Part shown: piece after piece, positions 8,630-59,281 of the stretch
Position numbering within the stretch: position 1 is the first letter of the stretch
How the letters are laid out: the number at the start of each line of letters is the position of its first letter
Origin: Acidovorax radicis N35
GTDB taxonomy: Bacteria; Pseudomonadota; Gammaproteobacteria; Burkholderiales; Burkholderiaceae_C
Assembly: GCF_000204195.1 (NCBI RefSeq)
Contig: NZ_AFBG01000023.1
Coordinates: 124,001 to 188,000 of the forward strand
DNA: 64,000 bases
Reading direction: 5' to 3'
Notes under the pieces: model-generated
Databases searched by the model: none
What the model was told of the DNA's origin: nothing
The model's input: only the letters and a program-made list of their open reading frames with translations
Translations under genes and position numbers: made by a program

Positions 8630-8687
8630 AATGCTATGCATTTGATAGCTATTAGCGCTTCTCCATAAAGCGCTGAAGGCCATTTTT
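8630..8687 (-). repeat. Dispersed repeat family A, copy 2
   Basis: Core AGCGCTTCTC ... ATAAAGCGCT, with TAGCTAT on one side and GAAGGCCATTTTTA on the other. It fills the gap between the DUF2145 stop and the start of the zinc-ribbon gene. Confidence 0.78.
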
Positions 8688-8689
8688 AT

Positions 8690-9562
8690 TCAATTCTTCA
8701 CCACCAGCACCACCGGTGCAGCCACCAGCTGCGCCCGTTGCAGCCAGGCCAGCATCGAATCGACGGTCACGGTCTCGATGCGGTCCGAAAACCGTTTCTC
8801 GTTCGGGTGGTCGTCAAATGCGATGTTGGCCGAACCCACGCGCCCGCCCATGCGGGTCAGCGGGCCCAGTTTCAGGGCGGTGGGCTCGTAGCCCTTGAAC
8901 TGCAGCCAGGCCTGCGCCTGGTCGCGTGTGCGCACCGTGGTGGGCTCCATGGCCATCGCCAGGGTCTCCAGCGCCCACTGGTTGGATTGCTGGTACTTGC
9001 GGCCCCACGCGTAGCTGACCATGCTGTAGGGCGGATGCTGCAGCGCCGTGGTGCGGCCCTTGTCCTGCAGCACGGCGATCAGGCGCTGCTGCACCTCGGG
9101 TGTGGGCACGGCGTACACCGCCTCGTAGCGCCACAGGTCGTCCAGGAAGAATTCGCCCAGGCCCTGGCGGTACAGGTGTCCAACGGCCGTGCCACATTCA
9201 TTGAGCTTGTGGGCCACCCACCATGGGCCCTCGGGCGTCTTGTACGCCCAGCCCAGGTGCGAATAGCGCAGGCCGTATTTGCTCAAGTCCTGCCCCGCGC
9301 GGGCGAGCACCACCACCTGGGCGCCGGACCTGGCGTGCTCCGCATCCAGCGCGGCCGAGGCCTGCTGCGCCAGCTGCATGCCGCGCTCGATCACTTTGGC
9401 AGGCACGGGTTTCGCGGCCTCGCAGGAGCGGCCCGCGTGGGCCGCGGGTACCGCCAGCAAGGCCGCGCCAGCCACCAGGGCCAGGCCGAGCATGGCGGGG
9501 TTGAAAGAAGAGCGCACGCGGGCACGCGCCGGGGTCGTCACGGTCATCTGCTGCACATTCAT
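8690..9562 (-). CDS. DUF2145 family exported protein
   Basis: 290 residues from MNVQQMTVTT, with a signal peptide ending near PAAHAG. The mature part matches the DUF2145 pattern: GRSCEAAKPVPAKVIERGMQLAQQ, then YGLRYSHLGWAYK, WWVAHKLNECGTA and YSMVSYAWGRKYQQSNQW. Two Cys in the mature protein could form a disulfide in the periplasm. Conserved His, Tyr and Asn residues (RYSHLG, HKLNECG) suggest an enzyme of papain/NlpC-like type, but the function is not established. Ten bases separate it from the upstream small exported protein gene, so the two are likely co-transcribed and may work together. Confidence 0.82.
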   Translation of the reverse strand: MNVQQMTVTTPARARVRSSFNPAMLGLALVAGAALLAVPAAHAGRSCEAAKPVPAKVIERGMQLAQQASAALDAEHARSGAQVVVLARAGQDLSKYGLRYSHLGWAYKTPEGPWWVAHKLNECGTAVGHLYRQGLGEFFLDDLWRYEAVYAVPTPEVQQRLIAVLQDKGRTTALQHPPYSMVSYAWGRKYQQSNQWALETLAMAMEPTTVRTRDQAQAWLQFKGYEPTALKLGPLTRMGGRVGSANIAFDDHPNEKRFSDRIETVTVDSMLAWLQRAQLVAAPVVLVVKN

Positions 9563-20352: not shown

Positions 20353-20456
20353 GCCGCTGCGCGGCGCTCCCCAGTGAGGGAACGACGCGGCGTTGGGGCG
20401 TTTGGCTTGCCGTCGCTCGTTTGAGATCGGGCGATGCAATGGGGTCGCGTGTCATT

Positions 20457-20512
20457 TGCTATGACATTGATAGCAATAAATGTTTATACAATAAGCGCGA
20501 GCGGCCAAAAAG
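20457..20512 (+). repeat. Dispersed repeat family A, copy 3 (degenerate)
   Basis: Recognisable by TAGCAATAAA, ATAAGCGCGAGCGGCCAAAA and the opening TGCTATGA. The left half of the core inverted repeat has decayed (TGTTTATACAATAAGCGC). It lies between the XRE gene and the promoter at 20567; the 100 bases before it show only a GC-rich, family B-like stretch. Confidence 0.6.
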
Positions 20513-20566
20513 CACTGAAATTTCGATGTTCGTGGCCGACTCCACCCTGTCAAAAGTAAAAGAAAC

Positions 20567-28524: not shown

Positions 28525-28590
28525 GCTTGCTATACAAAAAATAGCTTCTAACGCACGTCCATCAAGCGCTGAACCCTTAAAAGGCTTCAA
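28525..28590 (+). repeat. Dispersed repeat family A, copy 4
   Basis: CTTGCTATAC, AAAAAATAGC (a small hairpin), TAACGCACGTCCATCAAGCGCTGAA in a degenerate core, then TTAAAAGGC. It lies between aptamer 2 and the dadA start, so it is part of the riboswitch's expression region and reaches within three bases of the ATG. Confidence 0.7.
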
Positions 28591-28592
28591 AA

Positions 28593-29909
28593 ATGCGCGT
28601 GATTGTTTTGGGTGCCGGCTTGCTCGGCGTGACTTCGGCTTATTTCCTGCAACAGCTCGGCCACGAAGTGACCGTCATTGACCGCCAGGGAGCCCCCGGC
28701 GCCGAAACCAGCTTTGCCAACGGTGGGCAGATCTCGGTCAGCCACGCCGAACCCTGGGCCAACCCCAGCGCGCCGCTCAAGGTGCTGCAGTGGCTAGGCA
28801 AAGAAGACGCCCCCTTGCTGTTTCGCCTGCGTGCCGACATGCGGCAATGGCTCTGGGGCCTGGCCTTTCTGCGCAACTGCACGCCGGCGCGCACGCGCCA
28901 CAACATCGAGCAGATCGTGAGCCTGGGCACCTACAGCCGCAGCGTGCTGCAGCAGTTGCGTGCAGCCACCGGCATCCAGTACGACCAGCGCACGCAAGGC
29001 ATCCTGCACTTCTACACCAACGCGAAAGAGTTCGCTGGCGCCCTGGCCCCGGCCGAGCAGATGCGCGCCCTGGGCTGCGAGCGCCAGGTCATCAGCGCCG
29101 ACGAGGCCGTGCGCATCGAGCCAGCGCTGGCCCACATCCGCCCGCAGCTGGCAGGCGCCACCTTCACGGCCGAGGACGAATCGGGCGATGCCAACCAGTT
29201 CACGCGCGAGCTGGCCAAACTGTGCGAGGCGGCGGGTGTGCAGTTCCGTCTGGGCCACCACATCACGGCGCTGCGCGAGGCAGGCGGCAACATCGACCAT
29301 GTGGAAGTGACCAACGCCGAGGGCCGCTTCGAGCGCGTGCAGGGCGACGCCTTCGTGCTGGCCATGGGCTCGTTCAGCCCGCTGCTGGCGCAGCCGCTGG
29401 GCATCCACCTGCCGATCTACCCAGCCAAGGGCTATTCGGTGACCATGCCGGTCAAGGACGCGTCCAAGGCGCACCAGGTGAGCCTCACGGACGACGAGTT
29501 CAAGCTCGTGTTCTCGCGCTACACCAGCCAGCAGGGCGATCGTTTGCGCATTGCCGGCACCGCTGAATTGAACGGCTATGACCGCCACCTGAACCAGGTG
29601 CGCTGCGACGCCATCGTGCGCCGCGTGGAGCAGCTTTTTCCTGGCGCGGGCGACGCGAGCCAGGCCCAGTTCTGGACCGGCCTGCGCCCCGCCACGCCCA
29701 GCAATGTGCCGCTGATCGGCAAGACGAAGCTCGCCAACCTGTTCCTCAACACCGGCCACGGCACGCTGGGCTGGACGCACGCCTGCGGCTCGGGCCAGGC
29801 GCTGGCCGACATCGTGAGCGGGCGCGCGCCGCAGGTGGATTTTGACTTCCAGGGGCTGGAACGCGACCGGCGGCCGGCCGCGCTGCTGCCCTCGCGCACG
29901 ACGGCCTGA
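28593..29909 (+). CDS. dadA: D-amino acid dehydrogenase
   Basis: 438-residue FAD flavoprotein that oxidises D-amino acids to 2-oxo acids and ammonia, feeding electrons to the respiratory chain. VIVLGAGLLGVTSAYFLQQLGHEVTVIDR is the FAD-binding GxGxxG fold. GAETSFANGGQISVSHAEPWANPSAP is the DadA signature. YPAKGYSVTMPV and FWTGLRPATPSNVPLIGKT complete the family pattern, and the C-terminal GHGTLGWTHACGSG binds FAD. It is governed by the tandem glycine riboswitch just upstream. That makes glycine a likely physiological inducer and perhaps substrate (inference). No alr or dadX racemase gene is adjacent. Confidence 0.93.
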   Translation: MRVIVLGAGLLGVTSAYFLQQLGHEVTVIDRQGAPGAETSFANGGQISVSHAEPWANPSAPLKVLQWLGKEDAPLLFRLRADMRQWLWGLAFLRNCTPARTRHNIEQIVSLGTYSRSVLQQLRAATGIQYDQRTQGILHFYTNAKEFAGALAPAEQMRALGCERQVISADEAVRIEPALAHIRPQLAGATFTAEDESGDANQFTRELAKLCEAAGVQFRLGHHITALREAGGNIDHVEVTNAEGRFERVQGDAFVLAMGSFSPLLAQPLGIHLPIYPAKGYSVTMPVKDASKAHQVSLTDDEFKLVFSRYTSQQGDRLRIAGTAELNGYDRHLNQVRCDAIVRRVEQLFPGAGDASQAQFWTGLRPATPSNVPLIGKTKLANLFLNTGHGTLGWTHACGSGQALADIVSGRAPQVDFDFQGLERDRRPAALLPSRTTA

Positions 29910-33584: not shown

Positions 33585-34910
33585 CTATTCGCTGTTCACA
33601 AAAACGGTCAGCACCCCGGTGTAGCCGTACAAATGGTGGTGCGCAATTTCACCCCCGGCAAAAAAGCCGGCCAGCGGCACATCGCCCAGCGCGTGGCGCA
33701 CGATCTGCAGCTCGGCACTGGGCCCGCCAAAATGGGGGCCGCCCCGGCCCGAGCAGCTCACATAGATCGCCCCGCAGATGCGCCGCCCGGTCTGGGGCAG
33801 AGCGCTGGTGCCCCGCGCCGCAGCCCCCGGTGCCGCGGCCAGATCGCCCAGGGTGTCTGACGACACCATCGGCGCAGGCTCCAGCTCCTCGGGTTCCAGC
33901 TCCTCGCGAATCTCGGCGCAGATCCGCATCAGGTCGGCGCGCGCCGCTGCCACATTGCGCTGGCAGAACGCCAGGTGCATGCCAGCCTCCACATGGTCGG
34001 CCAGGGCCACGCCCCGGCGGCTGCCGTCGAGCCCCACGATGTGGCGCACGCGCGTATCGGTGCCGAAGTGCCCCGTGCGGCGCTGGCCCAGAGGCTGCTC
34101 GCCCGCGCTGACCAACCCGGCCAGCGTGGCGCGCACCTTGCGCAGCGCGGGCTGGGGGTCTCCACTGTCCAGCGAGACCTGCAGCGTATCGAGCAGCACA
34201 TCCAGCGCGGGCTCGCCATCCAGCGCCAGAACGACATTGTCCTGCGCGGCGGTGATGGTGCGCAGCGCGCCCACGGGCTGGCAGCCCTGCGTGACGCGCG
34301 ACACCAGCGCCACCCCAGCGCCAAACGCCACGCCCGACAAGCCGCCGTCAAACACCCCGCTGGCGCCGCCCTGGCCGGCCATGTTGCCGTCGCCGCCCAC
34401 TGCAAACTGTACGTTGCTCGTGCGGCTGGCGGACAGGCCACCAAACAGGTAGCCGGTGTCGGTGCGTGCGGCCATCTCGGCCAGCAATTCGGTCAGTTCG
34501 GGGGTGCGACCGTCGGCATGCACCAGCGCCGTGTGGGCCACAAAGCCTGCGCCCGGGTGCGGCGCGTGCGTGGGCAGCGGTGCCACTCCGGAGAACACAC
34601 GGTACTGGTCGGCCGGCACATCCAGCAGCATGACCGACAGCGCCGGCTCGTCAAAGTACTCGGCATTGTTGGCCGACACGCCCACACCCACGGTACCGGT
34701 CCAGTCCGTCACCTCGGGCAGCTCGCCACTCAGGTAGTCGAGCAGCGCCTGGGCTTCGTTGCCGTAGTGGTCGGTGACGTAAAGGAGGCCCAGGGTGGGT
34801 GCCGAAGCGTATTCGGGCAGCGCCATCTGGGCGCGCAATTGCGCCAGCACCAGCGCGGCGGCCATACGCCACTGGGGGTGGGTGGCGTGGCCGGAAGGGA
34901 AAAGTTTCAT
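33585..34910 (-). CDS. FIST-domain sensory protein
   Basis: 441 residues from MKLFPSGHATHPQWR. FIST_N covers about 20-215 (LGLLYVTDHYGNEAQALLDYL, YLFGGLSASRTSNVQFAVGGDG). FIST_C covers about 240-430 and ends CGAIYVSCSGRGGPHFGG and LAGFFAGGEIAHHHLYGYTGVLTVF. FIST domains are predicted to bind small ligands such as amino acids and to feed signalling proteins. Here the domain is alone, with no kinase or cyclase attached. An upstream ATG at 34925 would add five residues. The gene converges on the CNNM gene, and phaM lies upstream on the same strand. Confidence 0.88.
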   Translation of the reverse strand: MKLFPSGHATHPQWRMAAALVLAQLRAQMALPEYASAPTLGLLYVTDHYGNEAQALLDYLSGELPEVTDWTGTVGVGVSANNAEYFDEPALSVMLLDVPADQYRVFSGVAPLPTHAPHPGAGFVAHTALVHADGRTPELTELLAEMAARTDTGYLFGGLSASRTSNVQFAVGGDGNMAGQGGASGVFDGGLSGVAFGAGVALVSRVTQGCQPVGALRTITAAQDNVVLALDGEPALDVLLDTLQVSLDSGDPQPALRKVRATLAGLVSAGEQPLGQRRTGHFGTDTRVRHIVGLDGSRRGVALADHVEAGMHLAFCQRNVAAARADLMRICAEIREELEPEELEPAPMVSSDTLGDLAAAPGAAARGTSALPQTGRRICGAIYVSCSGRGGPHFGGPSAELQIVRHALGDVPLAGFFAGGEIAHHHLYGYTGVLTVFVNSE

Positions 34911-34992
34911 GGGGTGGATCTCCATGCCAGGGCGGTGGTGGGCCGATGTTGCGCCCACTTGCGGGTTGTTGCCACACCCGCCCGCGTTGGCG

Positions 34993-35868
34993 TCAGCCCG
35001 CTCGCTTGCGGGCCGCTGGGCTGCGGGTGCTGCTGCTGGCTTTTTTGGCGGCGGGTTTCGCCGTGGTTTTGCGGGCCGCAGGCTTCGGGGTGGCGGTGGT
35101 CTTCTTGGTGGCGCCCGGTGCAGCGGCACGCTTGGCGCCGCCCTGCATGGTCTGCATGCCCTTGGCGGCGAATTGGGTGGCCATGCCGGTGGCCGTCTTG
35201 AGGGCTTCCTTGGCGAGGCCCGTAGCCATGTTCTTGGTGGTGTCGATGGCGGTCTGCTTGGCCGCGTCCTTCATGGCGTTGGCGGCGATCTGCTGGAACT
35301 GGCCGGTGAGCGCGCCCCACCACTGCATCGGGTCCACCACGGTGGGCGCAGCGGCGGCGGCCGATGCCTTGCTGCCCTTCGCCTTGGCCTTGGCAGGCTG
35401 GGCGGCGGGCTCGGCTTCCTCGCGCTCGTCTTCTTCTGCTTCTTCGGCAGCGCTCGCGCGGCCCGTAACACGGGCGGCAGCCCCAGCGACGGCGCCCGCC
35501 GCGCCGCTCACGGTGTCGGCGGCTTTCTGCACACCGCTCATCACGGTGTCGGCGGTCTTGAGCTTGAAGGCATTGGCCACGTCGCCCATGCTGAAGTTCA
35601 TGCCCTTGAGCGTGGCCAGGGTCATCTTCTGCACCTCCAGCGCCTGTATGGTGGCGGCCAGCGCGCGCGAGTTCTGCTCCAGCCAGAACTGCACGGCCTT
35701 GAGTTCGTCGATGCGCTTCTCGAGTTCTTCGACGCTGATGGTGGGCGCCACCCAGTTGCTGAGGTTGGGCAACTGCGGAATGCTGTTGGACGCCCCTTTG
35801 GCCAGGCTCTGCAAAAAGTCAAAACCTGGGACAAGTTTGCCGAAACCGAAATTCGATGTGTCGCTCAT
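34993..35868 (-). CDS. phaM: PHA granule multifunctional regulator PhaM
   Basis: 291 residues. The N-terminus SNFGFGKLVPGFDFLQSLAKG and the coiled coil VEELEKRIDELKAVQFWLEQNSRALAATIQALEVQKMTLATLK are typical of PhaM. WWGALTGQFQQIA follows. The C-terminal 55 residues are Lys/Ala/Pro-rich (KKTTATPKPAARKTT), a histone-like DNA-binding tail. In Ralstonia, PhaM activates PHA synthase, coats polyhydroxyalkanoate granules and ties them to the nucleoid. The presence of the gene implies storage-polymer metabolism in this organism. No phaC is in the window. Confidence 0.9.
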   Translation of the reverse strand: MSDTSNFGFGKLVPGFDFLQSLAKGASNSIPQLPNLSNWVAPTISVEELEKRIDELKAVQFWLEQNSRALAATIQALEVQKMTLATLKGMNFSMGDVANAFKLKTADTVMSGVQKAADTVSGAAGAVAGAAARVTGRASAAEEAEEDEREEAEPAAQPAKAKAKGSKASAAAAAPTVVDPMQWWGALTGQFQQIAANAMKDAAKQTAIDTTKNMATGLAKEALKTATGMATQFAAKGMQTMQGGAKRAAAPGATKKTTATPKPAARKTTAKPAAKKASSSTRSPAARKRAG

Positions 35869-35964
35869 GGCCGCTCCGCAAGAGGTGGACGAGGGTGATC
35901 TGTGGTGGAGGCACAGCTTACTCCAATGCGTTGCGCCCGCGAAGGCGCTGCGGCGGCGAGAACC

Positions 35965-36462
35965 TCAGTGTTTATGCCCATCCATCATGCTGCCCGCAGT
36001 GGCACCACCGGGTGCCGCCGTGCCCACAGGCACTGTCAGGTTGAGCTTGCTTTCCGCACCCTTGGCATCCTGGAACACCAGGGTGATGGGCACCGAGCTG
36101 TCCTTGGCCAGGGGCGCCTTCAGGTCCAGCAGCATGACGTGGTAACCACCGGGCTTGAGCTCCACGGTCTTGCCCGCGGGCAGATCGAGCGTGGGCACGG
36201 CGCGCATCTTCATGATGTCGCCTTCCATCTTCATCTCGTGCACTTCGGTGATGCCAGCGGCGGGCGATTCGGCGCGCACCAGGCGGGCGCCGTCCTTGGC
36301 GGTGAGGCGCATGAAGGCGCCCGTGGCCTTCTGGCCCTGCACGCTGGCACGGGCCCAGGCGCCTTCGACCTTGACGGCGGCGGTCTGGGCCCATGCGGGG
36401 GCGCTGGCCAGTGCTGCGGCCAGTGTGGGAACGAGGGCGGCGCGGTGAAGCAGTTTTTTCAT
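35965..36462 (-). CDS. PCu(A)C-type periplasmic copper chaperone
   Basis: 165 residues with a signal peptide ending near PAWAQT. The copper-site pattern is H-M ... M ... H-x-M: EVHEMKMEGDIMKM, then GGYHVMLLDL. The C-terminus is Met/His-rich (GSMMDGHKH), a second possible copper patch. PCu(A)C proteins carry Cu(I) to the Cu(A) centre of cytochrome oxidase. It is the last gene of a minus-strand copper locus: DUF2946, TonB receptor, YcnI, PCuAC. Confidence 0.93.
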   Translation of the reverse strand: MKKLLHRAALVPTLAAALASAPAWAQTAAVKVEGAWARASVQGQKATGAFMRLTAKDGARLVRAESPAAGITEVHEMKMEGDIMKMRAVPTLDLPAGKTVELKPGGYHVMLLDLKAPLAKDSSVPITLVFQDAKGAESKLNLTVPVGTAAPGGATAGSMMDGHKH

Positions 36463-36525
36463 GATGGATGTCTTTCGGAGGTCAGCTAGAAATGGGGTGG
36501 AGCAGGCGCGGGGCGGACCTGACTG

Positions 36526-37086
36526 TCAATGATTGTGCGCACCGCCGCCGCCCGTGGGCAGAATCTCCAGCGCTGCCGCAGGGGACTTCAGGTCCGAGAG
36601 TTTCTGGCCGGCCTTGGGCACATCGACCCAATCGTTGCGGCCTTCGACACAGGCCTGGCGCACGGGCCAGTACACGGTGCCGGCCTGCTCCGGCGCCTGG
36701 GCCACGAGCACGAACTCGTCGTAATGGGCGCTTTGCAGCATGTCGTCCGGCGTCTTGGCCGTCCAGGTGATGCGCACCACGTCTTCGGTGATGCTGCGGC
36801 CGTGGCTGGTGTACGGCTGTGCGAGTTTTTCGCGCTGTACCTCCAGCGTCCAACCGGGCTTGGGCATGGGGCGCGCGCCGCGCATGCCGGCCGGGATGTC
36901 CACCGCGACCTGCCGCGTGGGCGACGCGCCGCAGCCGTGGCCAACCTTGAAGCTCGCCTTGTAGCTGGCGCCCGCCGGGGCCACCTGGTATTCGAGCACC
37001 ACATGGGCGGATGCAGAGCCAAAAAGGCCTCCAGCGCTTAATAGTAAAGCGGTGGCAGCTATATTTTTCATAGTGTTTGATTTCAT
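36526..37086 (-). CDS. YcnI-like (DUF1775) copper-binding protein
   Basis: 186 residues. The signal peptide ends SASA, so the mature chain starts with His (HVVLEYQVAP). An N-terminal His is the copper ligand in YcnI. GHGCGASPTRQVAVDIP, MPKPGWTLEV and ITWTAKTPDDMLQSAHYDEFVLVAQAP complete the DUF1775 domain. There is no C-terminal membrane helix; it ends HNH instead. Start is ATG 37086 (AAGG before it) or ATG 37071. The coding DNA for the signal peptide (37020-37069) matches dispersed repeat family A, see that entry. It is between the TonB receptor and PCuAC. Confidence 0.9.
   Translation of the reverse strand: MKSNTMKNIAATALLLSAGGLFGSASAHVVLEYQVAPAGASYKASFKVGHGCGASPTRQVAVDIPAGMRGARPMPKPGWTLEVQREKLAQPYTSHGRSITEDVVRITWTAKTPDDMLQSAHYDEFVLVAQAPEQAGTVYWPVRQACVEGRNDWVDVPKAGQKLSDLKSPAAALEILPTGGGGAHNH
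37020..37069 (-). repeat. Dispersed repeat family A, copy 5, inside a coding region
   Basis: On the minus strand: AAAAATATAGCT, CCGCTTTACTATTAAGCGCT, GGAGGCCTTTTTGG. Compare copy 1 (AAAAATGCTAGCT, AGCGCTTTATAAATAAGCGC, GAGGCC). The order and spacing of all blocks agree. It is in frame and spells the YcnI signal peptide from the second residue of MKNIAATALLLSAGGLFGS onward. Confidence 0.7.
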
Positions 37087-37135
37087 ACTCAGACCTTGCG
37101 TTTCAACGATTCATTGCCTTCAACACTGGCGCGCC

Positions 37136-37222
37136 CGAGGCGAGCGCCACCGCGGAACCGGCTTCGCCGGGCCGCTGGAGGCGTCCCCCTTGGGGGAAGC
37201 GGCGCAAGCCGCTCAGGGGGTT
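37136..37222 (-). repeat. Dispersed repeat family B, copy 2
   Basis: On the minus strand: CCCCCTGAGCGGCTTGCGCC, GCTTCCCCC, GGGGGACGCC, then GGCCCGGCGAAGCCGG, TTCCGCGGTGGC. It is the best copy of the family and begins inside the last codons of the TonB receptor, supplying its TGA stop. Confidence 0.78.
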
Positions 37223-39519
37223 ACTTTCAATTCAGCCAGGTAGGTGCGCTGCGGGTAGGGGTGGAAGTTCCAGAACTGGTAGTTGTTGAGGTTGTCGATG
37301 CCCACGGCAGCGCTCACCTGTTTGGTGATCTGGTAGCGCACACGCACGTCGGTGGTGAAGTAGCGGCTGGCGCCCTGGTAGGCAAAACCGTTCACGTCGG
37401 TGTTGTCCAGCGTGCTGTACTGCCTGCCGCTGTAGCGCGCGCCCAGCGTGTATGACCACTTGTCGTCGGGCCGGTACGTGGCCACGGCACTGGCGCGCCA
37501 CTCGGGGATGCGCGGCTGCCACTTGCCCACGCTGGCGGGAAACTTGTCGTTGCGGGTGACCTTGGAGTCCGTCCAGGTCAGGCTTGAACCGAGGTCGAGC
37601 CCACGCAGAAGAACATTGGCGGCCTGGTACGACAGCTCGATGCCCTTGGTGCGGATGGCATCCACGTTCTGCACGTTGGTCACGTTGGGCGCGACGAGCA
37701 CGTTGGTCTGCGAATACAGCGCGTCCTTGGTGCGCTCAAAAAACGCGGTCAGGCGCAGCAGCCCATTGCCCATATCGCGCTCGGCCGTCAGCTCGGTGGT
37801 CCAGCTCTTTTCGGGCCTCAGGTTCGGGTCGTTGTTGATCAGCGTGCCGCTGCCGTTGATGCCACCCTGGTACAGCTCGGCCACGGTGGGCATGCGCACC
37901 GCGCGGCCAGTGGAGGCCTTGAGCACCCACAGGTCGTTGGCCTGGTAGGCCACGGCAGCCTTGGGCGAGAAGTAGGTTTCGTCGCGCTCGGGGTGGCTCA
38001 CGGTGGTGGTGGCATTGCCGGTCTGGCCGTTGCTGGCGCTCCAGCGCTCGGCGCGGGCGCCCAGCACGGCCTTCCACTTTGGTGCGATCTTCCAGGTGTC
38101 TTGCGCCCACAGGCCAATGAGCTGGGTGTCGCCGTTGAAGGCCTGGTTGCGGGCGCCTGCTGCGCCGCTGATCCAGTTCGTCGTGGCGTTCTCCACGGTG
38201 CGCAGCTGGTAGCTGTCGCGCTGCAGGCCAAAGTCCACGATGTGCGTGCCCTGCACCCCATTCGGACGCCAGGTGCCTTTGGCGGCCAGCGTGTTCCAGC
38301 CCGTGCCCTTGTTGTTGACGATGCGCCCTGCCCCGCCGTCCAGCGCTGCAGGCAGCGCCACGGTGGCGGCGCGCAGGGTGTCGGTTTGGTAGTCGTACAG
38401 GCTGGCGGCCACCTCCCAGTCGAACGCGCCCTGGGTGTGGCTTTTGACCGAGAGCCCGTGCATAAAGTGCGTGAGGTTCTCGTTGGAGACATTGAAGTCC
38501 GTGGGCGCGAGCGTGTACGAGCGGCCGTTGATGTTGACCGTGCCGCCGTACACCGCATTGCCATTGGCGTCGCGCAGGTAGCTGGTGGGGCGCCCTTCGG
38601 ATTCGTTGTGCCACCAGCCCAAGGTGTAGGCCGCCCGCACGGTGGGCGAGAAGTCGTAGGCGATCTTGGCCTTGATGTGGTCTTGCTGCGTGTGGTACTG
38701 CGTGGCCGTGCCCAGCAGGTACCAAGGCTGGTTGCTGCGGTTGTTGCCCGGCACCGCGCCGGTCACGGGCGTGCCCGCGTTGCCCACGGTGCCGGCGGAC
38801 ACCAGCCGCGTGGGGAAGGTGAGCGGCTGGCCTTCGCTGTCGGTCTTGTTGAAGTTGAGGAACCACGACCAGTCGCCATTCTTGTTGCCGACGGATGCGC
38901 TGACCTGCTTGCCCGCGTAGGTGGCGTTGGTGCCATACAAATCGAACGGCTGGTGCTGGACGCTGACCTGCCCGTGCGCCTCGAACTGTGTCGGCATGCG
39001 CGTCACATAGTCCACCACGGCACCCACCGAGTTGCCGGCATAGGCGGCGGAGAACGGGCCGTAGAGCACATCCACGCGCTCGATCTCCTCGGGCGTGACC
39101 AGCATCCAGCGCGGCGCGTTGGTGGGGCCGTTGCCCAGGTAGTTGCTCAGCAAGATGCCGTCGGCGAACACCATGGACCGCGCCGGGTTGCCCGTGCCCG
39201 AGGCGCGCGTGGACAACACGGCGTGGTTGTAGTCGCCGATGTAGCGCTTGCGCACCAGCAGGCTGGGCAGGTACTTGAGGGCGTCTTCGCTGTCGGTGGC
39301 GTTGATCGAATGCTCGATTTGCTCGCGCGTCACGCCCTCGATGGTGGTGGGGATCTGCGTGGGCAGCGAGGTGGGCTGGCCGCCGCGGATGGTGACCACG
39401 CCCAGCTCCTTGACGGGTGCGTTGGTGCTGTCAGCGGTCTGGGCCCACACGGGCATAACCCAGGACAGGGCAAGGGGAAAGGCGCTGGCCACGGCCAGCG
39501 CCATGCGGCTTTTGCGCAT
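37213..39519 (-). CDS. TonB-dependent receptor, probable copper receptor
   Basis: 768 residues with a signal peptide ending near PVWAQT. The plug domain covers about 40-170 (VTREQIEHSINATDSEDALKYLPSL, ERVDVLYGPFSAAYAGNSVGAVVDYVTR). A 22-strand barrel follows and the last strand reads RTYLAELKVTP. Outer-membrane receptors of this class bind metal complexes or copper (OprC/NosA-like). The neighbours (DUF2946, YcnI, PCuAC) point to copper. The chain ends VTP rather than the usual terminal Phe or Tyr, because a family B repeat starts there. It is co-directional with ycnI, 127 bp away. Confidence 0.88.
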   Translation of the reverse strand: MRKSRMALAVASAFPLALSWVMPVWAQTADSTNAPVKELGVVTIRGGQPTSLPTQIPTTIEGVTREQIEHSINATDSEDALKYLPSLLVRKRYIGDYNHAVLSTRASGTGNPARSMVFADGILLSNYLGNGPTNAPRWMLVTPEEIERVDVLYGPFSAAYAGNSVGAVVDYVTRMPTQFEAHGQVSVQHQPFDLYGTNATYAGKQVSASVGNKNGDWSWFLNFNKTDSEGQPLTFPTRLVSAGTVGNAGTPVTGAVPGNNRSNQPWYLLGTATQYHTQQDHIKAKIAYDFSPTVRAAYTLGWWHNESEGRPTSYLRDANGNAVYGGTVNINGRSYTLAPTDFNVSNENLTHFMHGLSVKSHTQGAFDWEVAASLYDYQTDTLRAATVALPAALDGGAGRIVNNKGTGWNTLAAKGTWRPNGVQGTHIVDFGLQRDSYQLRTVENATTNWISGAAGARNQAFNGDTQLIGLWAQDTWKIAPKWKAVLGARAERWSASNGQTGNATTTVSHPERDETYFSPKAAVAYQANDLWVLKASTGRAVRMPTVAELYQGGINGSGTLINNDPNLRPEKSWTTELTAERDMGNGLLRLTAFFERTKDALYSQTNVLVAPNVTNVQNVDAIRTKGIELSYQAANVLLRGLDLGSSLTWTDSKVTRNDKFPASVGKWQPRIPEWRASAVATYRPDDKWSYTLGARYSGRQYSTLDNTDVNGFAYQGASRYFTTDVRVRYQITKQVSAAVGIDNLNNYQFWNFHPYPQRTYLAELKVTP

Positions 39520-39540
39520 GGGAACTCCTGAATTTCAAGC

Positions 39541-39600
39541 CAAATAGGCCGTCAGCGCTTATCTATCAAGCGCAAACAGCTATTAAACAAATAGCAATTT
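39541..39600 (-). repeat. Dispersed repeat family A, copy 6
   Basis: AATAGGCCGTC, AGCGCTTATCTATCAAGCGC core, then AGCTATTAAAC and AAATAGC. It lies between the DUF2946 stop and the TonB receptor start and touches the DUF2946 stop codon. Confidence 0.8.
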
Positions 39601-39965
39601 CAGGAGAAGGCCGGAGGCCCGCGCGGCGGCAGTGGCGCGGCGGTGCGCGCAGCAATGTGCGCGGCGGGAATGGGGCGCAGGGCATGCGCCAGGGGATGGA
39701 TTACAGGCAGCTGCGCCTGTGACGATGGGGGAGGAGCGCCCACATGCGCGCACAACGGGCAGTCCAGCGTGTGGCTGGGCAGCTCCTTGGCGCCGTCGTC
39801 GGTCTTGACCAGCACCTTGATGGCGCCCGAGCCCGAACAGATCAGCTCCATCGCCTGCGGATTGACCAGGGGCGACGCCACCGCCACCCCCATGGACAAC
39901 ACAAACCACGCCAGCACAAGGCGGGCGAGCCAGCGAAGGCTACGGATGGTTTGGAGGGAGGGCAT
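39600..39965 (-). CDS. DUF2946-family protein of the copper locus
   Basis: 121 residues. A signal or membrane helix at residues ~10-30 (WLARLVLAWFVLSMGVAVASPL) is followed by LICSGSGAIKVLVKTDDG and LDCPLCAHVGAPPP. The CPLC motif is typical of DUF2946 and could bind copper. The C-terminus is Pro/His/Ala-rich. DUF2946 genes usually sit beside copper receptors, as here. First gene of the minus-strand copper locus; the TonB receptor follows after a family A repeat. Confidence 0.85.
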   Translation of the reverse strand: MPSLQTIRSLRWLARLVLAWFVLSMGVAVASPLVNPQAMELICSGSGAIKVLVKTDDGAKELPSHTLDCPLCAHVGAPPPSSQAQLPVIHPLAHALRPIPAAHIAARTAAPLPPRGPPAFS

Positions 39966-40087
39966 GGGTGCGGATTGTAGGGGGCCGGCGCGCGAACTCC
40001 TTGACGGAGGTCATCTGCGCGACGGACTGCACCCCCGCCCGCACCTAGGATGCGTGCTGCATTCACCACCATGACGGAGACAACACC

Positions 40088-40735
40088 ATGCTGACACTCT
40101 GCGGCTTTTCGGCCAGCAACTACTACAACAAGGTCAAGCTCGCCCTGCTCGAAAAGGGCCTTCCCTTCACCGAGGAACTGGCCTGGGTGGGCGAGACCGA
40201 CCGCAGCGCCAGCCCGCTGGGCAAGGTGCCCTACCTGCGCACCCCCGAGGGCCCGCTGTGCGAATCGGCGGTGATCGCCGACTACATCGAGGCCGCCCAC
40301 CCCGCGCACCCACTGATCCCCGCCGACCCCTACCAGGCCGCCAAGGTGCGCGAGCTGATCACCTTTCTGGAGCTGCACCTGGAGCTGGTGGCGCGCAACC
40401 TGTACCCGCAGGCCTTTTTTGGCGGCACGGTGAGCGATACCGCCAAGGAAAAGGTGGGGGCGCAACTGGAAAAGAACATTGCCGCCTTCGGCCAGCTGGC
40501 GAAGTTCAGCCCCTACGTGGGTGGCAACACCTTCACCCTGGCCGATTGCGCCGCCATCGTGCACTTGCCGCTGGTCAGCTCGGCCACCAAGATCATCTAT
40601 GGCCGCGACTACCTGGCTGGCCTGCCGGTGCGGGATTACCTGACCCGCATGGCCGAGCGCCCGCACGTGCAGCGCGTGAATGCGGATCGCAAGACCAATA
40701 CCGCGGAGATGCTGGCACGGCCGGCCAAGCGCTAA
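40088..40735 (+). CDS. Glutathione S-transferase family protein
   Basis: 215 residues. The N-terminal thioredoxin-like domain (MLTLCGFSASNYYNKVKLALLEKGLPF, GKVPYLRTPEGPLCESAVIADYIE) includes the cis-Pro and the glutathione Glu-Ser pair. The all-helical C-terminal domain ends YVGGNTFTLADCAAIVHLPLV, with the conserved Asp of the N-capping box. The probable catalytic residue is a Ser or Asn in the first motif (FSASNYYN). Cytoplasmic, typical length; substrate unknown. Confidence 0.9.
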   Translation: MLTLCGFSASNYYNKVKLALLEKGLPFTEELAWVGETDRSASPLGKVPYLRTPEGPLCESAVIADYIEAAHPAHPLIPADPYQAAKVRELITFLELHLELVARNLYPQAFFGGTVSDTAKEKVGAQLEKNIAAFGQLAKFSPYVGGNTFTLADCAAIVHLPLVSSATKIIYGRDYLAGLPVRDYLTRMAERPHVQRVNADRKTNTAEMLARPAKR

Positions 40736-40844
40736 GCGCCCTTCTTCCGCAAAGGGCCGGGGCGTCATCCCTTGACCCTGGTCAACCAGGGGCTCTGCAC
40801 GCAGGCGCACCATGCAGGTATCCGCTCACCCGAGGAGACACCAC

Positions 40845-41216
40845 ATGGACAAGACCCAAGCCGCCCCATTCCGCCAACTGTTGCTGGCCCAGCAATCCGG
40901 GCTGCGGGCGCAGTTGGCTGCGCAGCGCGGCGGCGTCATAGGCCGTGCAGAGGCCGCTGCCGACCACTTTGGCCAGCCCGAGGACCCACGGGCCCAGCTG
41001 GCCACCGAGCGTGAACTGGAATTTGCGCTGGACGAACGCGAAACCACCCATCTGGCCGCCGTGGAAGCTGCTTTGGCCCGCATCGAAGACGGCACGTACG
41101 GTGAATGCACGGACTGCGGCACCCACATCACCGCCGCCCGCCTGCATGCCACCCCCGAAGCTGCGCGCTGCGTGCATTGCCAGGAGAAGGCCGAGCAGCA
41201 TCGCCGCGCAGCCTGA
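40845..41216 (+). CDS. DksA/TraR-type zinc-finger protein
   Basis: 123 residues from MDKTQAAPFRQ with CGAGGAGA upstream. An N-terminal coiled coil (about 8-85) is followed by the zinc finger CTDCGTHI ... ARCVHCQ, a four-Cys site. The acidic tip expected in DksA is not clear: ELEFALDERETTHLAAVEAALARIEDGTYGEC. It is probably a TraR/DksA-like protein entering the RNA polymerase secondary channel, but may be a shorter relative without ppGpp function. Confidence 0.85.
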   Translation: MDKTQAAPFRQLLLAQQSGLRAQLAAQRGGVIGRAEAAADHFGQPEDPRAQLATERELEFALDERETTHLAAVEAALARIEDGTYGECTDCGTHITAARLHATPEAARCVHCQEKAEQHRRAA

Positions 41217-58329: not shown

Positions 58330-58388
58330 TTGATCCTATTTTTATAGCTATCAGCGCTTATCCAATAAGCGCTAACGGCATTTTTAAT
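58330..58388 (-). repeat. Dispersed repeat family A, copy 7
   Basis: The cleanest core: AGCGCTTAT, CCA, ATAAGCGCT, a perfect 9-bp inverted repeat. It is flanked by TTTTTATAGCTAT and AACGGCATTTTTAA. It occupies essentially the whole gap between glpP and glpQ. Confidence 0.85.
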
Positions 58389-58390
58389 GC

Positions 58391-59281
58391 TCATTCCTGC
58401 ACCTCGGGCTGCTGGGTGCCCACGCGCTGCATCCAGTTGTAGAGGATGAAGCACAGCAGCAGGATGATGAAGAAGTAGATCAGCGAAAACGCCGCCGCCG
58501 GCCCCAGGTCGAACTGGCCCACGGCCTTGGTCGTGAGGTACTGGCTGAGGAAGGTGGTCGCATTGCCCGGCCCGCCGCCCGTCAGCACAAACGGCTCGGT
58601 ATAGATCATGAAACTGTCCATGAAGCGCAGCAGCACCGCGATCATCAGCACGCCGCGCATCTTGGGCAGCTGGATGTAGCGGAACACCGCAAACTTGCTG
58701 GCGCCGTCGATGCGCGCGGCCTGGTAGTAAGCGTCGGGGATCGAGCGCAGCCCGGCAAATGCCAGCAGCGCCACCAGCGGGGTCCAGTGCCATACGTCCA
58801 TCAGCAGCACCGTCAGCCAGGCCTGTGTGGCGTTGCCGGTGTAGCTGTATTCAATGCCGATCTCTTGCAGCATGCGGCCCATGAGCCCGATGTCGGCCCG
58901 GCCATAGATCTGCCAGATGGTGCCCACGACGTTCCACGGGATCAGCAGCGACAGGGCCACCACCACCAGCACGGCGGACGACTTCCAACCCTGGGCGGGC
59001 ATGGACAGGGCCAGCGCGATACCGAGCGGGATCTCCACCGCCAGCACCGACAGCGAGAACGTGATCTGCCGCCACAGCGCGGCATGCAGCTCCTCGTCAC
59101 GCATCACGGCGGCAAACCATTCGGTGCCGACAAACACGCGCCGCTCGGGCGAGATGATGTCCTGCACCGAGTAGTTCACCACCGTCATCAACGGCAGGAT
59201 GGCCGAGAAGGCCACGCAGATGATGACCGGCAGGATCAGGAACCAGGCCTTCTGGTTCACGGGCTTGGTCGTCGTGCTCAT
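58391..59281 (-). CDS. glpP: Glycerol ABC transporter permease (MalF-type)
   Basis: 296 residues, six helices, from MSTTTKPVNQKAWFL with GGAGG upstream. It carries the EAA loop SIPDAYYQAARIDGASKFAVFRYIQLPKMRGV. The pore partner of GlpQ. An upstream frame extension into glpT is not used. Between glpT (58 bp) and glpQ. Confidence 0.93.
   Translation of the reverse strand: MSTTTKPVNQKAWFLILPVIICVAFSAILPLMTVVNYSVQDIISPERRVFVGTEWFAAVMRDEELHAALWRQITFSLSVLAVEIPLGIALALSMPAQGWKSSAVLVVVALSLLIPWNVVGTIWQIYGRADIGLMGRMLQEIGIEYSYTGNATQAWLTVLLMDVWHWTPLVALLAFAGLRSIPDAYYQAARIDGASKFAVFRYIQLPKMRGVLMIAVLLRFMDSFMIYTEPFVLTGGGPGNATTFLSQYLTTKAVGQFDLGPAAAFSLIYFFIILLLCFILYNWMQRVGTQQPEVQE

Follow-up and report, generated by a model that had tools for sequence, protein, structure and literature searches.

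The subject of this study is the start of ycnI, a gene coding for a protein of 186 amino acids at positions 36526–37086 (minus strand) of a 64,000-nucleotide stretch of DNA from Acidovorax radicis N35, which we call the window (the genome as a whole, 5.5 Mb, is G000 in our numbering). The open reading frame (ORF) carries a DUF1775 domain (Pfam PF07987, E 1.5e-42, residues 28–175). Its first 27 codons, counted from the presumed start codon of ycnI (37006–37086, minus strand), encode a predicted Sec signal peptide, MKSNTMKNIAATALLLSAGGLFGSASA, and residues 4–26 of the precursor are encoded by a copy of a short palindromic repeat that is dispersed in the genome.

Sec signal peptides have a positive n-region, a hydrophobic h-region and an A-x-A motif ahead of the cleavage site. 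Judged by eye, MKSNTMKNIAATALLLSAGGLFGSASA-H fits this pattern, and the peptide presumably directs export of YcnI by the Sec pathway. Cleavage is predicted to occur before His28 (codon 37003–37005), because this residue stands directly behind the motif SASA and a His is also found there in the aligned orthologues examined. The exact site should matter, since the mature N-terminal His of Bacillus subtilis YcnI is described as binding Cu(II) (PMC8424229).

The repeat and its copy at the start of ycnI

The repeat is about 64 base pairs (bp) long, with a left arm nGCTATnAAAnnnATAGCT, a core AGCGCTT-7 nt-AAGCGCT and a right arm AGMGGCCnnTTT; the guanine–cytosine (GC) content of the seven full-length main-strand matches in the window is 0.34–0.46 over 68 columns. 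A search of the A. radicis genome with the strict core pattern gave 94 matches, while the reversed control pattern gave 0. Forty of these 94 places, fetched with their flanks, were used as a training set from which ycnI was excluded, and the intact core is a feature of these copies by selection. From them, an oriented profile (a position matrix), an alignment and a covariance model with the 7 core pairs were built, and the covariance model finds at least 150 matches in the same genome. The repeat has the many dispersed copies that are typical of miniature inverted-repeat transposable elements and of elements like the Rickettsia palindromic elements, and it may be mobile. In the 40 training copies (L003–L042), the core and its 7-nt loop lie in one direction relative to the unlike arms in 20 cases and in the other direction in 20, as if the core could flip inside the element, with the reservation that a few loops are nearly symmetric, which makes some orientation assignments soft.

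The copy in ycnI (37009–37076, minus strand) scores 51.0 bits with the covariance model (E 4.7e-9), which places it fifth among the 12 matches listed in the scan of the window, and 52.9 bits with the matrix; the leave-one-out scores of the training copies range from 33.7 to 78.7 bits (median 68.3). No gaps occur in the match, which spans 64 columns with the matrix and 68 with the covariance model and extends at most over 37076–37009. An earlier, sequence-only reading of this DNA had pointed out three blocks of a dispersed repeat at 37069–37020 (minus strand). The blocks are indeed present where it placed them, while the true match begins earlier, up to 37076, and includes the Met6 codon (ACTATG). 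The claim that the repeat encodes the predicted signal peptide also holds at the nucleotide level for the n- and h-region, and the register is that of true copies as far as SASA-His; the repeat stops shortly before the predicted cleavage site.

The score is far above that of chance signal-peptide DNA. The first 32 codons of ycnI were recoded with the protein unchanged, 2000 times in each of three schemes, and the native score was never reached (0/2000 each), whether the codons were drawn according to local codon usage (maximum 7.0 bits), drawn uniformly (27.7 bits) or permuted (44.8 bits). The best of 5000 base shuffles scored −30.4 bits. Among 1232 starts of ORFs of at least 150 amino acids, taken from the window and 80 named loci, positive scores are found at ycnI, sometimes twice through overlapping frames, and at four further ORFs (L119 at 605, L092 at 628 and, on the minus strand, L082 at 5818 and L113 at 3442). 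The ycnI segment therefore belongs to the repeat family in the sense that it matches the profile of the other copies without gaps and far beyond chance. Its own palindromic core is not intact and has one mismatch (ACCGCTT). By its letters, the segment is a decayed copy, a descendant of the family and not an intact member of it.

Orthologues of ycnI and other genes that begin in the repeat

In the genus, 36 of 47 genomes carry ycnI, of which 30 were scored first as loci and six later. By matrix, 29 of the first 30 score above 21 bits and the remaining one, L061, scores 3.6 bits; the six later genes give 48.5, 37.4, 32.8, 20.0, 7.9 and −9.3 bits. Overall, 33 of the 36 score above 17 bits and 35 above 0, which means that the segment is old and genus-wide and does not result from a recent event. 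Of the 92 distinct ycnI 5' ends scored, 27 are above 30 bits, 34 above 17 and 38 above 0, and another four have scores from −25 to 0. The highest score, 61.1 bits (L067), is like that of a true copy; it is followed by that of Simplicispira hankyongi (L113, 53.9 bits) and then by the ycnI of the window. The ycnI genes of Limnohabitans and Comamonas score below −50 bits, as do five of seven genes from Ramlibacter, and four of six from Polaromonas score −49 bits or lower. In two Rhodoferax genes (L135, 4.2 bits; L146, 2.5 bits), a shorter distance separates the match from the His than in Acidovorax, so these may possibly be separate insertions.

The number of model matches per genome ranges from 0 to at least 109 across the 47 genomes of the genus, and 43 of them have at least one match at E up to 1e-6. 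Six genomes (G001, G008, G013, G016, G020 and G044) have 0–1 matches and the other 41 have from 17 to at least 109; the family has been lost or has never expanded in these six, which we call repeat-poor.

The proposal that ycnI has a repeat-derived, predicted export signal is borne out, except that ycnI is not a lone case: there are at least six in its own genome. The further genes were found by a peptide search of this genome, by profile searches and by a scan of its 124 copies above 15 bits. Five more predicted exported proteins have an N-terminus encoded by the repeat, on the same strand and in the same frame as in ycnI. They are a cupredoxin (L154, 46.2 bits), whose start reads MKTIKLIAACALWISASTSFG-HEN; an ABC_trans_aux lipoprotein (L169, 54.3 bits), in which the repeat is followed by the lipobox-like LGIAGC; an M16 peptidase (L170/L265, 58.8 bits); a Chalcone_3, or chalcone-isomerase-like, protein (L168/L276, 54.6 bits); and a plastocyanin-like protein (L325, 51.3 bits). 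All are above the Pfam cut-off, the M16 peptidase through its C-terminal domain only and, like the Chalcone_3 protein, as scanned in a relative's protein, and the plastocyanin-like protein narrowly and with Copper-bind only (22.9 against a cut-off of 21.2). Three of the six repeat-started families are copper or cupredoxin-type proteins. The six cases come from among the matches listed, and more may exist.

Among 40 loci with long frames over the repeat, we judged 25 to be real gene starts (10 M16, 9 cupredoxin, 5 Chalcone_3 and 1 ABC_trans_aux); the remaining 15 were rejected as read-through of intergenic or antisense DNA. Twenty more loci of the A. radicis genome, taken from 117 matches, yielded L325 as the sole convincing new signal peptide. 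L315 was rejected as a further case, its frame being antisense inside cobS. This cobS gene (L315:252-1058, plus strand; Pfam CobS, E 3.8e-53) contains a 43.0-bit copy, and the opposite-strand frame of that copy encodes part of an apparent membrane segment of CobS.

The repeat lends itself to this use. Of the 119 copies above 30 bits in the A. radicis genome, 53 have the signal frame open, and in 21 it is both open and hydrophobic (12-residue Kyte–Doolittle mean above 1.5), against 94 of 2380 base shuffles; on the opposite strand, frames are open and hydrophobic in 13 and 2 of the 119 copies. The repeat is therefore better raw material for signal peptides than random DNA of the same composition.

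The cupredoxin, M16, Chalcone_3 and ABC_trans_aux families were searched in 12 genomes, keeping the best match per genome. In the six repeat-poor genomes none of 21 matches is positive (−4.4 to −71.5 bits), whereas 18 of 24 are positive in six repeat-bearing genomes (G000, G012, G021, G023, G041 and G046). The N-termini from repeat-poor genomes look unrelated in the cupredoxin and Chalcone_3 families, and mostly so in the ABC lipoprotein. Close orthologues of the plastocyanin-like protein occur in 36 genomes of the genus, and 31 of these 36 score above 13 bits; the other five (G013, G016, G020, G044 and G040) score −32 to −59 bits, and four of the five genomes are repeat-poor. In the plastocyanin-like genes L373–L376 (G025, G029, G045 and G046), several more codons precede the repeat in the precursor than in A. 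radicis, which may reflect a different start codon or a different event.

Origin of the signal peptide

We regard it as highly probable that the repeat was placed at the start of ycnI in an ancestor of the genus and exapted there as a Sec signal peptide, and that it serves in the same frame in at least five other predicted exported proteins. A palindromic repeat of about 64 bp would have come to lie at the start of the gene. In the sense frame that is most open, it reads approximately (T)IKxIAASALWISASGxF. This lysine with the hydrophobic stretch behind it could act as n- and h-region once joined to a start codon upstream, at a distance of a few codons, and to the SASA-His cleavage site downstream. 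From then on the segment would have served as the export signal of YcnI, drifting as protein-coding DNA, and at least five further genes for predicted exported proteins would have taken up the same frame in this genome. The nucleotides of the segment descend from the repeat, its register and frame are those found in the other cases, and it is conserved across the genus; its replacement of an older signal and the route by which the repeat arrived at ycnI are what we infer. It is also likely that the repeat has supplied signal peptides recurrently in Acidovorax, as a module used by at least six unrelated exported families, that it replaced earlier signals and that it has been kept over most of the genus.

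Several observations weigh against this interpretation. The further genes were found with signal-peptide queries, so that their all being export signals is partly built in. The boundary of the repeat-bearing ycnI genes is not sharp: in the genus, the gene of G021 (at the same place as L091) scores −9.3 bits and two others only 3.6 and 7.9, and outside these 36 genes L092, L093 and L138 have scores from −25 to 0. Repeat-bearing ycnI genes occupy more than one part of a mature-protein tree (90 rows), which a single ancient insertion and repeated independent insertions would explain equally well. Six of the 24 matches in the repeat-bearing genomes are negative: M16 in G012, Chalcone_3 in G012, G021 and G041, and the cupredoxin in G021 and G041. 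In the first of these, the gapless score is defeated by the in-frame loss of 3 bases from a stretch that otherwise resembles the repeat; the cupredoxin match in G041 (47%) is perhaps a paralogue. Most of all, similar residues are found without the nucleotides of the repeat. Such orthologues, which the sequence-only reading had named as evidence against itself, do exist for ycnI in Polaromonas (L112, L116 and L117, with little or no nucleotide match), that is, outside the genus; inside it, all ycnI genes but one are positive. The M16 peptidases of G008, G013, G016 and G044 likewise keep similar residues without repeat nucleotides (MINFKKLAVGTVLASSSALFYCGSAWALLP in G013, MITLKNIAARALLISAGAVFYSNSAWALLP in A. 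radicis), and the plastocyanin-like gene L339 of G040, a repeat-bearing genome, has repeat-like residues in GC-rich codons and scores −32.3 bits, which looks like drift of the DNA beneath a preserved peptide.

These orthologues may be read in two ways, as repeats worn by GC drift or as descendants of an older peptide that was elsewhere overwritten by the repeat, and the direction of change may be either. The second possibility leads to the alternative that survives best, namely that a signal peptide with similar residues was already in place and was overwritten from a repeat copy by gene conversion or template switching. It would account for the similar residues in the repeat-poor M16 peptidases, in the ycnI of Polaromonas and in L339, and for the normal length of the YcnI signal peptide (27 amino acids), to which no 20 residues have been added. 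However, the repeat-poor N-termini are unrelated in the cupredoxin and Chalcone_3 families and mostly so in the ABC lipoprotein, and worn-down repeats would also resemble an older peptide. We hold overwriting to be a tenable but rather doubtful explanation.

Could the segment have been retained for a function of its DNA or RNA, such as a hairpin or a translation regulator, its coding being incidental? Its position at the gene start would agree with this, as would its ATA codons, which have been kept: in the 30 ycnI genes of the genus examined for coding behaviour, the segment has 62 Ile codons, of which 43 are ATA, against none of the 127 Ile codons of the mature part. On the contrary, the coding frame of the segment is free of stops in all 30 genes, while stops are present in 30 and 6 of the 30 in the other two frames. 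The core hairpin is decayed: all 7 core pairs are kept in 2 of the 30 genes, against 70 of 118 other copies in the A. radicis genome, as would be expected if selection now acts on the segment as coding DNA. A scan of 34000–41000 against Rfam gave no credible match, the sole one being mir-7918 (E 0.94), whose 21 bits fall short of the gathering score of 80, and YcnI without the segment would show no visible signal peptide. We rejected a kept hairpin or RNA element on account of the decayed pairing and the Rfam result, and consider this explanation as a whole very improbable. One comparison of codons counts against our own interpretation: where residues are shared, the codons agree at a rate of 0.80 in the segment and 0.74 in the mature part (0.76 in the first 21 mature codons), which is a small difference.

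Convergence is less probable still. According to this explanation, signal peptides, with their high content of Ala, Leu, Ile and Ser and their AT-rich 5' codons, would come to resemble an AT-rich repeat. The composition of the h-region fits, and a codon permutation can come within sight of the native score, as seen above; but no recoding in any of the three schemes matches that score, which rules out a mere likeness of composition, positive ORF starts are confined to ycnI and four others, the register is gapless, and six separate genes share one frame. As for the idea that the repeat family began as a piece of a signal-peptide gene and spread from there, the single frame shared by the gene-start copies is in its favour, but the family is palindromic, the six in-gene copies (46–59 bits) score below the training median and the signal frame is open in fewer than half of the copies of this genome, which makes it the least credible explanation of all.

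Related elements and other copies in the window

Signal peptides that derive in part from repeats have been predicted in Yersinia, chiefly from RU-2 (YPAL) in YPO1552 (Delihas 2007, PMC2759123; reviewed in PMC2229807). As here, relatives of YPO1552 carry unrelated signal sequences (PMC2759123, PMC2229807). RU-2 is 168 bp long, compared to about 64 bp for the Acidovorax repeat, from which it is set apart by its description and not by its letters (PMC2759123). YPO1552 is the main case given for Yersinia, with a few further segments, predicted to be signal or membrane segments, that stem from RU-2 and from a frame-shift reading of RU-1, mostly in small putative proteins (PMC2759123, PMC2229807), whereas the repeat studied here is found in six conserved protein families and has been kept over most of the genus.

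Rickettsia palindromic elements, likened to our repeat by description, are also palindromic and lie in frame within genes for conserved proteins; they are 105–146 bp long, and the review lists 19 reading-frame insertions that are not, in its account of them, presented as export signals (PMC2229807). The beta-proteobacterial repeat element (BRE) is, like our repeat, dispersed in Comamonadaceae with some copies in ORFs, but its length is 75–91 bp, it often occurs in tandem and its mean GC content is 69% in Bordetella (PMC3110155). One BRE copy is reported in Acidovorax sp. JS42 and four in A. avenae subsp. citrulli (PMC3110155), unlike our repeat, with 34–46% GC in the window copies and at least 150 matches in one genome. 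We rejected the identification of the repeat as BRE, from whose published description (PMC3110155), compared in place of its letters, it differs in GC content and layout.

A survey of signal-peptide gain and loss in Enterobacterales also asks where whole signal peptides come from; it is described as having found no transposable elements when it looked for them at the N-termini (PMC5952966), whereas here a repeat is present at the site. The work on B. subtilis YcnI deals with a DUF1775 protein and its Cu(II)-binding N-terminal His and, in the part available, does not treat the origin of the signal peptide (PMC8424229). In the literature searched (openly licensed papers, with most subscription papers outside), no report of the letters of the repeat or of this case was found. 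In Acidovorax, the source of whole signal peptides is visible many-fold, in six exported families and with orthologues that lack the repeat, which makes the question of their origin directly testable with reporters. It also appears that one short stretch can serve as a repeat copy and as working coding DNA together.

Regarding the surroundings of ycnI, a gene for a PCuAC copper chaperone is found downstream (35965–36462, minus strand; Pfam PF04314, E 4.7e-36) and a gene for a TonB-dependent receptor upstream (37213–39519, minus strand; Pfam PF00593 and PF07715). By the covariance model, the window also contains copies on the plus strand at 1806–1873 (57.1 bits), 8631–8698 (62.8 bits) and 58330–58397 (62.3 bits), as well as two degenerate copies, also on the plus strand, at 20456–20523 (27.5 bits) and 28527–28594 (23.5 bits). 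Last, an intergenic copy (39530–39597, minus strand, 61.4 bits) lies just upstream of the receptor gene, in its leader, and ends 10 bases before the receptor ORF begins (39519).
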